A stretch of 64,000 nt of DNA from Hyphomicrobiales bacterium. Lineage in GTDB: Bacteria; Pseudomonadota; Alphaproteobacteria; JAPOUT01. The notes below the pieces were generated by a model. It worked only from the letters and a program-made list of their open reading frames with translations. It had not been told where the DNA came from and did not search any database. Shown in pieces: positions 1,844 to 64,000 of the stretch. Position 1 is the first letter of the stretch, and every line of letters begins with the position of its first letter. Location of the stretch: NCBI GenBank assembly GCA_026708505.1, contig JAPOUU010000011.1, positions 80,509 to 144,508 on the forward strand, given 5' to 3'. A program made the translations under genes and the position numbers.

Positions 1844-1868
1844 GCCGCAAACCCGCGGCGCCGTTTTT
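1844..1868 (+). terminator. possible Rho-independent terminator of lolC-lolD
   Basis: GCCGC (1844-1848) can pair with GCGGC (1855-1859) across a six-base loop, followed after GCCG by five T. It lies 60 nt after the lolD stop and its T run overlaps the stop of convergent autotransporter 1. An upstream CGCGGAA/TTCCGCG palindrome near 1796-1811 could add a second stem. The stem is short, so confidence is modest. Confidence 0.4.
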
Positions 1869-4513
1869 AGAAGAACGAATAAACGAATCCGAGGCTTGCG
1901 GCGTATCCTGCAACCTCTCCCCCTTGTTGCGTGGAGACGTCCGCCGAAAGCGCATAAGCGCCGCCCCATGAATATGTCGCGCCGACACCAACGTCAAATG
2001 CGGGATCTTCGCGCTTGGAGGTTATTTCCGTTCCGTTGAGTTTGGTGGCAACTTCGCCGTCCAGCGGGACGAGAACATCTGCATGGCCGCGAAAGTCGAT
2101 CCCCTCCCAGGAATCCTCGAACGCGACGCCTGTACGCGCAAGAAGCACATCGCCGTCTCCGAGAGCAACGTTCGTGCCGACGGTGTCGGTGAAGTCGTCA
2201 AAATCAACACTCGTCCACGAGAGCTGCGCCGAGGGAATGAGGACGGTATTAGAAAACACGGGGATGCGTATCAATTTATCAAGTTCCATCGCATATCCGA
2301 CCTCAACGCCCGCCGTATATGCCTTCACGTCCACATCGGCAATCTTTGCATCCTTCTCAATGCTGTTATCGAAGCTGCTGTATCGGAGTTGTCCGTCCGC
2401 ATAGACGCCCCTGTGCTCCCAGCCTGCATTGATCGTGCTGATGATTGATTCGGAAGCAATTTCTCCGGTGCCGACCGGAACGGAGACATCGGTGCCGGCG
2501 TCCCCGAAAGCGACACTCGCACCCAAATTGAACGAGGAATTACCGGAGCGAATCGGAACGTCAACGCCGAACTCGGCAACGATGTTCTCGGCCTCGTATG
2601 TTGCCCCGGCGGCGGAGTTCGGTTCGAACTCTCCGGATGCTCCTCCGACCTTCCCCCACATTGCCGTATTGCCGGCATGCTGCCTGCCCCGGAGCCGTTG
2701 CTGGCGGGACTCCAAGTCGGCGAGTTGCGAGAGGGCGGCAGGAAGCGACTCATAGAGTGCTACGTCAAGGAGCGTCACACTATTGAGCAGTGCATCAAAG
2801 CTTCCCGATGCCGCCTGGCAGCCCGCACCGACGGGACAAGCAACGAGATCCCATCGATTTTCGGCTGAATTATAAACAAGGTTAAAGTCGAAATTGCCGC
2901 CGTCCAGAACATCCCCTGCTACGAAGGCATTGGAATTTGCAGAATCTACGACGGCTATGAAGTGTTGAAGGGTAATGAAACCGTCTTCATCGTTGTCGGA
3001 AACCTGGAATTCATTCATTGATCTAATGTTGACGGGGATTGTGCCGGTGACCGATGTTGTCCTCAGGCGCGCATTGGCGAGTTCCGCGTCCCCGCCGGAG
3101 AAGTCGACATCAATGTCGATTTCTCCGTCTCCCGTAAGTGATCCGATAGCGAAATTGGTGCCGTTTCCGGTGAGCTCGAGTCGACCGGAAAGTGTAACCG
3201 ATGCACCGCTGAAGGAACTGTCATCCGTGATTTCAAGGGTCGCTCCATCGGCGATGGCAAGGCCCCCGGTTCGGAAGATTGAACCTTCCCAAACGAGTTT
3301 TCCTTCATTGACGTTGGTTTGGGCGAAGCCTGCCCCGGATGCGTGGGTTCCCGTGACGGTAAGAGTATGGTCGCCGTCTTTATCAAAATTGTGGTCACCG
3401 GTGATTGCGGGAGTGTCACCAATGTCAAAACTGCGGTCGCCCGTTCCGCCAATTTCAATACTTGCAGCTCCCGTGACACCGGATACATCAATACCGCCGG
3501 TAAAACTTGCACCCGTTCCCAAAACGATAGTGGCGTTACTTGATGCTGATGTCGTTGAAAGCTCGATGGCGTTTGCGCTCGAACCGCCAACAACGCTGCC
3601 GTTGACGGTAAGGGTAATATTGCCGGTGCCCGAGTGGTTAACACGGACGGCGTCCTTGGCGGCGGCAGTGGCGGTCACGGTGTCGGCGATGGTTATGTCC
3701 ACATCTCCCGTGCCGGAATGTTCAACCTCAATAGCCTCTTCACTGGTACTGGAGGTAACCGTTCCGGTTGCCATAACGGTAACCGCGTTGTTTCCGTCGA
3801 TATCGAGCTTGATACCTTCCGTACCGCCCGTGACAGCCGCGTTTGTGGTGAGATTTACCTCGCCCGTTGTTGCCGCAGCCGTGGAGATCTGGATGCCGGA
3901 AACGTGCCCTGTCACGGTTCCGTCCGTGGTGACGGTAACATCGCCGTTTCCGGACTGGCTGATGTCAATTCCCTCATTATTGTTGGACCTGATGGTTCCG
4001 TTTGTTGTAAGGACAACCGCGCCCGTGCCATTTGAGTCGATGCGGACGGCATCGTTATGGGAGGTAATGTTGTTGCTTTGCGATAAATTGACAGTAATTG
4101 TAGTGGTGGTCGCTTCGGACGTGACTCTGATACCATAGTTAGTGGTATTGGAAGAATTCAGGCCGAAGGAGGGCACGTTGTTGATGCCCCTGGTGCCATA
4201 AACGCTTACAGACTGATTCGCCCTGCCCTCAATGGTTTGCGTTAAGTCTCTGCCGCCGCTATCCGGGCCAGCGGAACAAACCCACCTCCCAATTACCCCG
4301 GGATCGGTGCAAATCCCCGCCTCAACGGGCGAGGTCGATGCCAACATTGCGCCGAGTGCAAAAACCGATACGCCGGCTAAAAACGGTGCAAAGGAGACTA
4401 GGCCCTTTGAAGTTTTCCTAAGTCGTCCGCCTCGAATGAGTTCGGGGGGGGGGGGGGGGGGGTGATTTCACGGTCGCCGACACCGCAACGGCTGTAGAAC
4501 TAAACGAATTCAT
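1867..4513 (-). CDS. Autotransporter 1 (type Va, beta-helical passenger), out of frame at a poly-C tract: phase OFF as sequenced
   Basis: Surface-exposed or secreted type V autotransporter. The 826-residue open part (ATG at 4347) begins inside the signal peptide. The true start is ATG 4513, 6-7 nt after a GGGAGA ribosome-binding site. From 4513 the frame gives 17 residues, six Pro from C19, then eight wrong residues and TAG at 4420-4418. Removing one C (18) restores an 881-residue protein: charged LIRGGRLRKTSKG, a hydrophobic core, cleavage after SPVEA, a passenger of about 500 residues made of roughly 30-35-residue Gly/Thr/Asp/Asn-rich repeats (pattern NGTVTG...GI), a linker with a Cys pair (CPVGAGC), and a C-terminal beta-barrel of about 270 residues starting near AMWGKVGG and ending YSFF. 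The passenger function is unknown; adhesion is the usual role. No inactivating change other than the tract is visible. Confidence 0.85.
4444..4462. repeat. G19 homopolymer (C19 on coding strand) in autotransporter 1 signal region
   Basis: Nineteen consecutive G on the plus strand, read as C19 immediately after codon 17 (TCA) of autotransporter 1. The downstream frame needs a tract divisible by three, so 19 is one too many and 18 or 21 would be ON. Tracts of this length slip during replication and are typical phase-variation switches. The exact count depends on how well the assembly resolved the homopolymer. Confidence 0.95.
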
Positions 4514-4552
4514 TTGATGTCTCCCTGCATTGAGAAATTTACAATTTAAGTA

Positions 4553-4581
4553 ATTTTATCGAACCGCCACGCAAACGTCAA
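4553..4581 (-). promoter_or_regulatory. sigma70-type promoter of autotransporter 1
   Basis: On the minus strand: -35 TTGACG (4581-4576), a 17-nt spacer ending GGTTCGA, and -10 TAAAAT (4558-4553), each one mismatch from consensus. The predicted start near 4546 gives a leader of about 33 nt. The same layout, with the same TCGATAAAAT at the -10, precedes autotransporter 2. Confidence 0.75.
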
Positions 4582-30503: not shown

Positions 30504-31070
30504 ATGGTTAAGATAAACGGCAACGAGGTTCGCCCGGGCAATATCATTGAGCACAAGGGAAGCTTGTGGAGCGTGGTAAAGTTGCGCCATGTAAAACCGG
30601 GCAAGGGCGGGGCGTTTGCACAGGTTGAATTGAAAAGCGTTCTAGACGGGACAAAGCTGAACGAACGTTTCCGTTCTTCACAGACGATTGAACGTGTGCG
30701 CCTGGAGCAAAAGAAGTGCCAGTTTCTTTATGCGGATGGTGACATGTTGAACTTTATGGACCAGGAAAGTTTTGATCAGGTATCGCTTGGAAGTGACTTA
30801 ATAGGGGAAAGTTTGGCGTATCTGCGTGAGGGGATGGAAGTCTCACTAGAGAGTTACGAGGGCAAGTTTGTCGGGATCGAATTGCCCGACCAAGTTACCC
30901 TCGAGGTGACGGAAACCGAGCCTTTTATTAAGGGACAAACGGCTGCGTCTTCGAACAAGCCGGCGCTGTTAGAGAACGGATTGCGTGTGATGGTGCCGCC
31001 GTTTGTATCGGTTGGAGACAAGGTCATTGTTGACACGCGTGATGGTAGTTACATCCGCCCGGCAGAATGA
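30504..31070 (+). CDS. efp: Elongation factor P
   Basis: Relieves ribosomes stalled on consecutive prolines. The 188 residues form the usual three beta-barrel domains. The tip loop reads KPGKGGAF with Lys34 at the position modified in E. coli; which modification is used here is not visible. The C-terminus ends [13 protein letters not shown], as in the family. It overlaps suhB by 4 nt. It matters here because both autotransporters have six Pro in their signal region and DnaE has PPPP runs. Confidence 0.97.
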
Positions 31071-61136: not shown

Positions 61137-61165
61137 TTGACTATCGCAAGGCGTGTCGATAAAAT
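61137..61165 (+). promoter_or_regulatory. sigma70-type promoter of autotransporter 2
   Basis: -35 TTGACT (61137-61142), 17-nt spacer ending GTGTCGA, -10 TAAAAT (61160-61165), each one mismatch from consensus. The predicted start near 61172 gives a 38-nt leader with GAGAGGG eight nt before the ATG. It is near-identical in layout to the autotransporter 1 promoter. The 100 bases between the chaperone stop and this promoter hold only a small GGCGG/CCGCC hairpin (61067-61080). Confidence 0.8.
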
Positions 61166-61209: not shown

Positions 61210-64000
61210 ATGAACCTGTTTCACTCTGCGACCGTTGTAGTTTCGGCGGTTACGAAATCCCCCCCCCCCCCCCCCCCGAACTTAATTCGAGGCGGACGGC
61301 TTAGAAAAACCTCAAAAGGTCTAATATCCTTTGCGCCGTTTCTGGCCGGCGCATCGGCGCTTGCGCTCGGCGCGTTGCTGTCAACGACCTCGCCGGTTGA
61401 AGCGGGGAGTTGTTCTACTGCCAATCAGCCCGCCGGGACGGCGCGTTGCGCGGACACGGCGGATCCGTCGGACGGAACCGAAACGCTTACAACTCCGGCG
61501 AACGGCTCCTTTACCGTCACGGATGCTCCGGGTTTCGGTTTGGATGTTCAAGCGGCGAACAGCAAGGGCATAGTTGTCAATTCGCATGCGGATAACACCA
61601 ACACCGACATCAGCGTTGATTTGGACGGCAACGTCAAAGCAACCGACAACGCCCTGGAGATTGACCAGGACGGCACCGGCGCGACGACCGTCACAATGGA
61701 CGGAACCCTCACCTCGACCGGCGGAGCAGGTTTCTTTGCCAACGTTGCTTCCACGGCGACGGGCGCGGTTATGCTCACCACCGCCGGCATCACCGCCCAA
61801 GGTCACGGCATCCGCTTAGTCAAGTACCAGGGTAGCGGTGCGACAACCATCACGGCAAACGGCGACATTGACGCCGAGGATAGGGCTATTTCCATCACCG
61901 ACCGAGGGGCGGGAAATTTGAGCATTATTGCCAGCGGCGCTCTCGACGGGCACGGAGGGGGCATGAGAGTTAACAAAGGACCCACCGGTACCGGTGCAAT
62001 TGATATCAGGGCGAGCGGCGGTATCACTTCCGCAAACGGCCGAGGGATCTATACCAGTAACCCATCGCTTACAGGAGGCTCCATAAATATTGATACCACC
62101 GGCGGCGCCGTCCAAGCCAAAACACAAGGTGTCCAAGTCGGGCACGACGGAGTCGGCGCGATTACCATCACCACAGACGATGTTACCTCCACTGATGAGG
62201 AAGGTATCAGGGCCATCAGTTCTACGAATCAGACGGGCAATTTTGAAATCACCGCGAACGGCAATGTTACCGGCGGGAAGCAAGGTATCTCTGCGGACAA
62301 TCGGGGGACGGGTGCGCTCACGGTCACAACAGGGTCGAGTTCGGTTGTCACTTCCAATACCGCGGAAGGTATCAATGCCATCAGTTCTACGGCACAGACG
62401 GGTAATTTTGAAATCACCGCGAACGGCAATGTTACCGGCGCGACGCATGGCATCCTTGCGACAAATGCGGGGTCGGGTGCGCTCATGGTCACAACAGGGG
62501 CGGGTTCGGTTGTCACTTCCACCAGCAGCGGAACGCATTATGCTATTCATGCCGTCGTCGATCAGCATATAGCTGCAATATCAAGCCTCAGCCAAGTCAT
62601 GACGATTACCGTTAACGGTGACATCGGCACTTCATCGAGTGACTCTCGCGGCGGAATTTGGGCGCGTCATAGCGGACTCGGCAATTTGAACGTGACCGTT
62701 AACGGCGATGTTTTCTCCGGCCTGGCGGGCGTGCATGCCTATCACTCGGGCCGGGGCAATATCGATGTTGCGATTAACGGTGCCGTCAACGGCGGAACGC
62801 ATGGTGTTCGTGTCAACCACCACCAAAACGACTCAAACGGAAATCTTCCGGACAACACCGCCACCGTCGCCCTGAACAACAATGTCGAGGGCGACATCGG
62901 GCTTCTCGTTGATATCAGGGATGCGGGCAACTCCTCCATGATTACCGTCGGCCGCACGGACGGGACCGCCGTCACCGTCACCGGCACGGACGGAACCGCG
63001 GTTGACCTGGACGGCGCGGGCAGCCACAGTTTCACCTTGCGAAGCGGCGCGACCCTTGCGGGAGGCATTGACGCTTCCGGCGCCACCGGAGGAACAACTC
63101 TCGACATCAGCGGGGCAATCAGCGCTACCGGCGGAGCCGGCGGAGACGCCATTAAATTCGACGGCGCGGGCAACCACACCGTCATCCTGAGGGGCGGCGC
63201 GGACATCACGGGGCGCATCGAAAAAGGCACCGCCGGAAACGTTGCAATCCGGATCGAGGGGGACCTCACCGCGAATCCTATCAGGTGGAGCAACCGCTCA
63301 ACACAAGCGAGCGCCAACAGTCTCAATAATTTTGACGGCGGCGACAGCATCGTCATCGCCGACAATTCGAGAGTCGAGTTTGCCACGGGCACGGGCCTCA
63401 ACGCCATACCCGTCGATCTTCACGGCCGGCTCGTATTCTCCGGCATATCCGACACCCAGCAGGTCCAACTCGCCGTTCTCAGGGGAATGGGCGGCGAGAT
63501 TGAAATGGACATTAATTTCGCCAACGGCGACAGGGAGCGGAGTTCTGCACGATTGCAACTAAACAATCTGCACAACTCGGCCATGCGGATCCCCGTCAAC
63601 GTTCGTGCGTTTGGCGGATTCCCCAAATTCAACGAAAATCTTGAATTCATCGATACAACCCTGGACACGGACGGAGACGGTTCAATCACCATCGGGCAGG
63701 TAATCCAAACCCACGGCATCGGCAACCTCGGCGAGGAGCATTTCGTTAGGGGAGTGGTGCTGGACAACGGAATCGACGACGGAAACTGGGTGCTCGAGCT
63801 CGTCTGCATCGGGTGCGACGACCCCCTTGCAACACCGACTTGGAGCGTTCGGGCAACGCCGACGCTGGATGCAGGCACAGGCGGCGGTCCCGGCGGTCCT
63901 GCCGTTCCCGCCGGCCCCGCGACCCTCTTTGACACGCTTCCGGCTGTCCTCGCGCATCTCGGGCAGCCCGAGTCCATGCACGCCAGAACGCGCAACCGCA
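61210..64000 (+). CDS. Autotransporter 2 (type Va), in frame through its poly-C tract: phase ON; 3' end outside window
   Basis: Large surface autotransporter. The frame from ATG 61210 is open for 930 codons to the window edge. Residues 1-17 (MNLFHSATVVVSAVTKS), six Pro from the C19 tract, LIRGGRLRKTSKG, a hydrophobic core and cleavage after SPVEA form a long signal peptide, closely matching autotransporter 1. The mature start has a Cys pair (GSC...ARC). The passenger is made of short Gly/Asp/Thr-rich beta-helix repeats, including two copies of a 55-residue unit. Near the end, ELVCIGCDDP and TLFDTLPAVLAHLGQPES resemble the linker just before the autotransporter 1 barrel, so the barrel should follow beyond 64000. 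It directly follows the type III secretion genes. Confidence 0.87.
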   Translation, partial: MNLFHSATVVVSAVTKSPPPPPPNLIRGGRLRKTSKGLISFAPFLAGASALALGALLSTTSPVEAGSCSTANQPAGTARCADTADPSDGTETLTTPANGSFTVTDAPGFGLDVQAANSKGIVVNSHADNTNTDISVDLDGNVKATDNALEIDQDGTGATTVTMDGTLTSTGGAGFFANVASTATGAVMLTTAGITAQGHGIRLVKYQGSGATTITANGDIDAEDRAISITDRGAGNLSIIASGALDGHGGGMRVNKGPTGTGAIDIRASGGITSANGRGIYTSNPSLTGGSINIDTTGGAVQAKTQGVQVGHDGVGAITITTDDVTSTDEEGIRAISSTNQTGNFEITANGNVTGGKQGISADNRGTGALTVTTGSSSVVTSNTAEGINAISSTAQTGNFEITANGNVTGATHGILATNAGSGALMVTTGAGSVVTSTSSGTHYAIHAVVDQHIAAISSLSQVMTITVNGDIGTSSSDSRGGIWARHSGLGNLNVTVNGDVFSGLAGVHAYHSGRGNIDVAINGAVNGGTHGVRVNHHQNDSNGNLPDNTATVALNNNVEGDIGLLVDIRDAGNSSMITVGRTDGTAVTVTGTDGTAVDLDGAGSHSFTLRSGATLAGGIDASGATGGTTLDISGAISATGGAGGDAIKFDGAGNHTVILRGGADITGRIEKGTAGNVAIRIEGDLTANPIRWSNRSTQASANSLNNFDGGDSIVIADNSRVEFATGTGLNAIPVDLHGRLVFSGISDTQQVQLAVLRGMGGEIEMDINFANGDRERSSARLQLNNLHNSAMRIPVNVRAFGGFPKFNENLEFIDTTLDTDGDGSITIGQVIQTHGIGNLGEEHFVRGVVLDNGIDDGNWVLELVCIGCDDPLATPTWSVRATPTLDAGTGGGPGGPAVPAGPATLFDTLPAVLAHLGQPESMHARTRNR
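61259..61277. repeat. C19 homopolymer in autotransporter 2 signal region
   Basis: Nineteen C, the first two completing the serine codon TCC and the last two opening CCG. With 19 the downstream frame (ATT CGA GGC) is kept, so the gene reads ON; a change of one or two bases would close it. The base next to the tract differs from autotransporter 1, which is why the same length gives the opposite state. Confidence 0.95.
62203..62532 (+). repeat. two tandem 165-bp units in the autotransporter 2 passenger
   Basis: A unit starting GGTATCA (62203 and 62368) repeats with period 165 bp (55 residues). Long identical runs occur in both copies, for example around AATTTTGAAATCACCGCGAA. The copies encode EGI-A-ISST...TGNFEITANGNVTG. 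Such units can be gained or lost by recombination without a frameshift. Confidence 0.8.

Follow-up and report, generated by a model that had tools for sequence, protein, structure and literature searches.

A 19-nucleotide poly-C tract places a predicted autotransporter gene out of frame in an alphaproteobacterium that likely carries a poly-C phasome

Genome-wide phase variation through poly-C and poly-G tracts has been described mostly in pathogens of mucosal surfaces, Neisseria and Campylobacter among them. According to a study on nalP and mspA of Neisseria meningitidis, a poly-C tract within the coding sequence sets the reading frame, ON and OFF alleles are both common, tract lengths range over 6–15 (nalP) and 6–14 (mspA), and expression was checked by immunoblot (PMC3723659). 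The Campylobacter gene capD encodes an autotransporter with a poly-G tract in its coding sequence; a paper on such genes argues that their inactivation tracks lineage (decay) and not tract length, a point tested for capC (PMC7168839). The term phase variation also occurs in two papers on Bartonella (PMC8859334, PMC10936683), and (AG)n repeats in Rhizobiales and Rickettsiales are treated in another (PMC4516964). In a review (PMC11868660), the strings alphaproteobacteria, symbio, Brucella, Ehrlichia and autotransporter do not occur and metagenom occurs once. A literature search at abstract level, with most subscription papers outside its scope, returned no poly-C phasome in an alphaproteobacterium. 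Here, we describe two uncultured alphaproteobacteria of one genus, with 16 long tracts in one and 15 in the other; their carriers include autotransporter genes, inverse-autotransporter-type genes and genes for TbpB/NHBA-like lipoproteins.

The window, that is, the whole 64 kb stretch of DNA analysed, comes from a Hyphomicrobiales assembly (G000) of 121 contigs that is 93% complete. On its minus strand, window gene 1 (locus L025) starts with an ATG at 4513-4511. This ATG opens a 51-nt coding module, MNSFSSTAVAVSATVKS (4463..4513), which over the 36 nt compared resembles the starts of inverse-autotransporter genes. The module is followed by exactly 19 C (4444..4462), a run that starts 51 nt past the A of the ATG and is thus a simple repeat in coding sequence near the 5′ end; sequence and run statistics mark it as a likely switch. 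With the tract as assembled, the frame from ATG 4513 reaches a stop after 31 codons (4418..4513), in agreement with the sequence-only reading. Directly behind the tract an 858-codon frame without inner stops opens with ELIRGGRLRKTSKG and ends with a stop at 1867 (1867..4443, minus strand); its register differs from that of ATG 4513. No start codon is present between the preceding stop and the tract of this gene. Upstream on the same strand are a promoter-like site, TTGACG-17-TAAAAT (4553..4581; 10 of 12 consensus bases, a match and not a proof), and the sequence AGGGAG (4521..4526), from its position 7 nt before the ATG a likely ribosome-binding site. ATG 4513 is likely used as a start, because this sigma-70-like site and AGGGAG lie upstream of it. 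Two promoter-like sites, one of them on the opposite strand, were found around the gene, versus 0.2 in shuffled sequences.

Frame reading, Pfam and modelling divide the 858-codon frame into a leader, a passenger and a barrel. The conserved leader, ELIRGGRLRKTSKGLVSFAPF...PVEAG (4315..4443, minus strand), probably acts as an extended signal peptide, judging from an alignment of 23 members; these show a charged segment, a hydrophobic segment and a likely cleavage site at PVEAG, all read from the alignment. In window gene 1 the ATG and this leader are parted by the frameshift. The tract had been placed within the region coding for the signal peptide. It does lie near the 5′ end of the coding sequence; its exact place, however, is an additional N-terminal stretch, directly ahead of the conserved leader. 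The autotransporter beta-domain (1936..2661, minus strand) matches PF03797 with an E-value of 8.7e-24 and 85 bits against a cut-off of 26, and its modelled fold matches the translocators of AIDA-I, EspP and NalP (TMt about 0.66–0.79; 0.75–0.79 for NalP). The model of the piece behind the tract, built with 22 sequences, has a mean pLDDT of 78.5 and a pTM of 0.53; within the passenger, which is repetitive, residues 101–330 reach block pLDDT values of 84–96 and form regular short strands. The frame ends in GFVYSFF, that is, with a terminal aromatic residue. Window gene 1 is therefore a predicted classical (type Va) autotransporter, with a modelled C-terminal 12-stranded barrel and a terminal aromatic residue, and the view that the gene is intact apart from its start is borne out by the stop-free frame, the barrel and this end.

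Like nalP and mspA, window gene 1 carries poly-C within its coding sequence and is predicted to encode a classical autotransporter, and its modelled barrel matches the translocator fold of NalP. Since the mechanism matches, this would be a known kind of switch. The differences are that the tracts measure 15–21 in this genome and 14–20 in its congener G001 (with a search threshold of 14), that they are known here from sequence alone, and that the tract precedes a conserved leader, recurs in paralogues and belongs to an alphaproteobacterium. With capD the locus shares a homopolymeric G/C tract in an autotransporter coding sequence, in another bacterial class. Novel aspects are the bacterial class, the tract length (15–21 versus 6–15), the set of surface families that carry tracts together, and gene starts shared between families.

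A second gene of the same kind lies on the plus strand of the window. Its layout repeats that of window gene 1, with a promoter-like site, TTGACT-17-TAAAAT (61137..61165; a consensus match), a 5′ coding module, MNLFHSATVVVSAVTKS (61210..61258), identical at 31 of 36 nt to an inverse-autotransporter-type gene of G001, and a second C19 tract (61259..61277), which is in frame with the gene behind it. The gene (61210..63999) was placed by its leader in the same family, the contig end cutting it before the barrel. No Pfam match was obtained on this cut gene or on its full-length relative P0155, which aligns over its last 297 residues with the barrel region of another database protein, P0001, at 35% identity (E 3e-48). 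The six-proline leader of the second window gene was found in two other database proteins, including P0155, which is encoded on a 2.84 Mb contig. Of the cut gene's product, P0155 has the first 85 residues and almost all of the final 303; the passenger between them differs, which suggests passenger shuffling, as read from these sequences.

Genome-wide, 16 tracts were found: four at autotransporter-family genes, five at genes for TbpB/NHBA-like lipoproteins, two at inverse-autotransporter-type genes, one at a cysteine-desulfurase-like gene, one at a MucR-like gene, and three elsewhere, these last not directly before a long frame. The tract of window gene 1 occurs at the same place in three paralogues, and all four genes (window gene 1, the second window gene and those on contigs C11 and C64) share the leader LIRGGRLRKTSKGLISFAPFLAG. 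PF03797 was detected in window gene 1 and C11, while the second window gene and C64, both cut by contig ends before the barrel, were placed by the leader alone. The five tract lipoproteins, one of which is contig-cut, combine a lipobox with a TbpB/NHBA-like barrel. The lipobox reads LLVAC-GGGG in three of the four fully read members, LVAAC-GGGG in the fourth and ILVNC-GGGG in the contig-cut C45; in this family the cysteine C47 is invariant in 24 aligned sequences. The TbpB_B_D barrel (PF01298) was matched with E-values of 7e-6 to 7e-5, one of four lipoproteins lying over the curated cut-off and three just below. Their C-terminal barrel resembles the C-terminal domain of NHBA (TMt 0.66–0.67); over the best fold matches among TbpB, NHBA and fHbp, known as neisserial surface lipoproteins, these proteins of about 360 residues are 9–20% identical and give model-normalised TM values of about 0.2–0.33. 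Inverse autotransporters (IAT_beta), of the intimin/invasin type, are the third tract-bearing family here and the main tract carrier in G001. One of the two tract genes was assigned by Pfam and the other by its start only, its contig ending 35 nt on, and four members scanned against PF11924 gave E-values of 1e-17 to 1e-19. In autotransporter and lipoprotein genes the tract comes before the likely signal peptide, whereas at the inverse-autotransporter-type genes it lies just after it or further in.

With 11 of the 16 tracts near the 5′ ends of genes whose predicted products, of these three kinds, belong to the outer surface, a poly-C phasome is likely in this genome. With good confidence, we propose that the C19 tract places the autotransporter gene out of frame and that slippage would likely vary its length, turning a predicted surface protein on and off. 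Slipped-strand mispairing at a pure C run during replication would add or remove bases. In one register, translation from ATG 4513 would run into the leader and give an exportable protein; in the assembled register it would halt after 31 codons, so that the autotransporter would be expressed in an ON/OFF manner. For autotransporters and lipoproteins, the varying number of prolines would be lost from the mature protein, because the tract precedes the likely signal peptide with which they would be removed. Some leakage could arise from +1 frameshifting at CCC codons. If switching occurs, a population would contain cells of several surface types, and seemingly broken genes in such assemblies may be intact. 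As to its use, bet-hedging against host defence, phage or predators and grazers would be a guess.

The register could be read at 11 tracts. Five are in frame (second window gene, C64, C39, C72 and C80) and six out of frame (window gene 1, C11, C31, C41, C45 and C1, the register of C1 having been taken from the upstream open frame with its signal-like segment). Such a mix fits random slippage, which predicts it. In the C11 gene, where the tract is out of frame, a second, inner ATG is in frame. mutS is present in the genome, so no repair defect accounts for tract instability.

Near-identical database proteins, likely from other assemblies, provide further alleles. P0001 has the same start, MNSFSSTAVAVSATVKS, and is identical to window gene 1 at 848 of 858 positions behind the tract; it is in frame and reads PPS where window gene 1 has the long run. 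P0080 agrees with the product of the C31 lipoprotein gene at 358 of 358 residues and is in frame, C31 being out of frame. P0040 matches the C72 gene over 356 of 356 residues with one proline fewer. The alleles were compared as proteins, each 90% cluster being represented by a single sequence, and gene callers have a preference for in-frame forms; P0058 and P0077, which begin at inner methionines, were left out. More distant autotransporter relatives (P0006, P0019 and P0159) have 5 to 8 prolines at the place of the tract. One fixed tract length across isolates, which had been named as evidence against a switch, is thus contradicted for three genes at the protein level. As P0001 has at most a short interrupted tract, not every strain has a live switch at this locus. 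That an intragenic poly-C tract brings about translational phase variation, as proposed earlier, is the best-fitting reading, supported by the intact frame, the promoter-like and likely ribosome-binding sites, the paralogue tracts, the mixed registers and these alleles.

Ribosomes stall at consecutive prolines, a block relieved by EF-P, and +1 shifts occur at CCC codons. The tract could accordingly be kept as a polyproline stretch or translation brake, its length tuning the level of expression instead of switching it on and off. We consider this improbable. In-frame forms do encode 4–8 consecutive prolines, and an EF-P gene lies within the window (30504-31070, domain about 30711-30869). However, a polyproline stretch could equally be encoded by proline codons other than CCC, whereas the tracts consist of C alone; roughly half of them are out of frame; the tract of two families lies ahead of the likely signal peptide and would be absent from the mature protein; and the 26 tract-free leaders examined lack such a run.

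An assembly or sequencing error, by which the true length would differ and the gene simply be on, or by which the run would be a poly-G artefact of two-colour chemistry, is in our estimate very improbable. The source assembly is fragmented into its 121 contigs, homopolymers of such length are hard to count, and five tracts lie within 420 bases of contig ends (C4, C24, C45, C64 and C72). Against an artefact as the main reading, the flanks run into coding sequence on both sides, paralogues have the tract at the same place, and the six-proline leader recurs in the two database proteins mentioned above, on a 2.84 Mb contig in the case of P0155; it was rejected on these grounds. The count may nevertheless be off by at least one base, which would alter the ON/OFF label and not the tract itself. 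The description of window gene 1 as switched OFF stands in so far as its frame is broken in the assembly, but the label covers the assembled consensus only.

That the frameshift marks a plain pseudogene, a one-way loss in a redundant family, is extremely unlikely and was rejected: the family is large (17 leader matches here) and locus L044 of G001 has no in-frame start, but the 858 codons are stop-free with an intact barrel, the near-identical P0001 is in frame, and one-way loss leaves 16 tracts in several gene families unexplained. A chance homopolymer was rejected, since a first-order Markov model from the window predicts 0.009 G/C runs of at least 14 in 2.249 Mb and 16 were found. The window, which the analysis had not picked for its tracts, has no G/C run above 7 apart from the two C19 runs. 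Across 213,064 bases, comprising the window and 14 loci fetched because of their tracts, G/C runs of 1 to 7 were followed by none of 8–14 and then by the 16 tracts of 15–21; runs of 8–13 were counted in these bases only. A/T runs stop at 8.

The leader family was matched 17 times in this genome (one match of just 18 residues) and 14 times in G001, and 0 times in the other 57 genomes searched. A search of named genomes returned 10 loci, all in Hyphomicrobiales bacterium CLI1_bin_3, which is G001, the window's own genome possibly being outside the scope of that search. In viral contigs 67 stretches match the pattern, none of which encodes a relative. C17–C19 separates a start codon from the conserved leader in four of the 16 cases examined here; in the remaining 12, and in each of the 14 of G001, no C run in front exceeds 6. 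An in-frame start codon (ATG, GTG or TTG) precedes 25 of these 26 tract-free leaders, L044 of G001 being the exception. At least five leader-family autotransporter genes (L041, L045, L047, L039 and L051) lie on one strand of contig C57 of G000, at 22.8–42.8 kb, none with a tract.

The congener G001 has 15 tracts of C14 or more, with lengths of 14–20. Among the 13 listed tracts that were examined, eight are at inverse-autotransporter-type genes (three called by Pfam, three by similarity and two by their starts only) and five elsewhere; five of the 13 are not in front of a long frame. The registers of the eight are in frame in four cases and out in three, one being cut off at the tract; the frame of L090, one of those in frame, meets a stop 103 codons on. 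As none of the 14 leaders of G001 has a tract, the switch at the leader family is not conserved in the genus. As far as these sequences reach, the genus appears to keep the poly-C device, with different families carrying it in the two species.

We extended the tract search beyond the genus. Among four genomes of the order, the two outside the genus have one tract each. Of 289 genomes of alphaproteobacteria, a subset of a larger group, with G000 and G001 among the 289, 55 have a tract of at least 14 C and eight have 10 or more such tracts. From two of these eight (G210 and G075) we fetched 20 tract loci, a part of their tracts, three of which had too little sequence behind. Only two of the 17 judgeable tracts have a frame of at least 100 codons behind them, for which reason the tracts of these genomes are not of the same kind; since most are not before long frames, tracts alone are no proof of switching. 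In G075, a member of another alphaproteobacterial family, four poly-C tracts (L176, L181, L182 and L183) follow a nearly identical sequence of the ATTGTTACACTTTTGTTACAAATATG type. A contig end lies too close behind two of them for a judgement and one has a long open frame behind; these are possibly promoter-type tracts.

The starts of the tract autotransporters were compared over their first 36 nt with those of inverse-autotransporter-type genes. The comparison used 19 starts with an evident ATG and of MNLF-like type, other or unresolved starts being left out, and the 34 other gene starts of the window as controls. Window gene 1 is identical to the best of the 19 at 27/36 nt (controls at most 18), the second window gene at 31/36 (best control 19) and the remaining cassette-like tract autotransporter at 27/36 (best control 21). 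The C11 start is unlike them (best 16/36 versus 17 in a control), so the cassette idea holds for three of the four tract autotransporters. Between the second window gene and an inverse-autotransporter-type start on C4, the likeness extends back to the promoter (score 38 versus 28 for the best of 200 shuffles). Start regions may have been exchanged at the tract between inverse-autotransporter and autotransporter genes, although the case is weaker for having been tested once the likeness had already been noticed, and with starts selected by type.

We tentatively suggest, as a possibility we rate below an even chance, that the tracts serve as both switches and joints. Inverse-autotransporter start cassettes (promoter, ribosome site and first dozen codons) would have been fused at the tract to classical autotransporters, placing one on/off device across unrelated surface families, alongside passenger shuffling; the bacterium would then have arrived independently at a surface that varies in phase and antigen much as that of Neisseria does, through autotransporters together with TbpB/NHBA-like lipoproteins. 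Shared start cassettes would offer a concrete route for the spread of a switch between gene families.

Two further tracts lie at genes of other kinds. In the cysteine-desulfurase-like gene (L020:10825-11981) a C17 tract begins one base after the ATG and is in frame; no close orthologue was found in G001, where the best match has 38% identity, and a phase switch on a metabolic enzyme would be unusual. A C16 tract lies in front of the MucR/Ros-type regulator gene (L012:67-496), whose contig starts 66 nt upstream of the gene; if phase-variable, this regulator could switch many genes at once.
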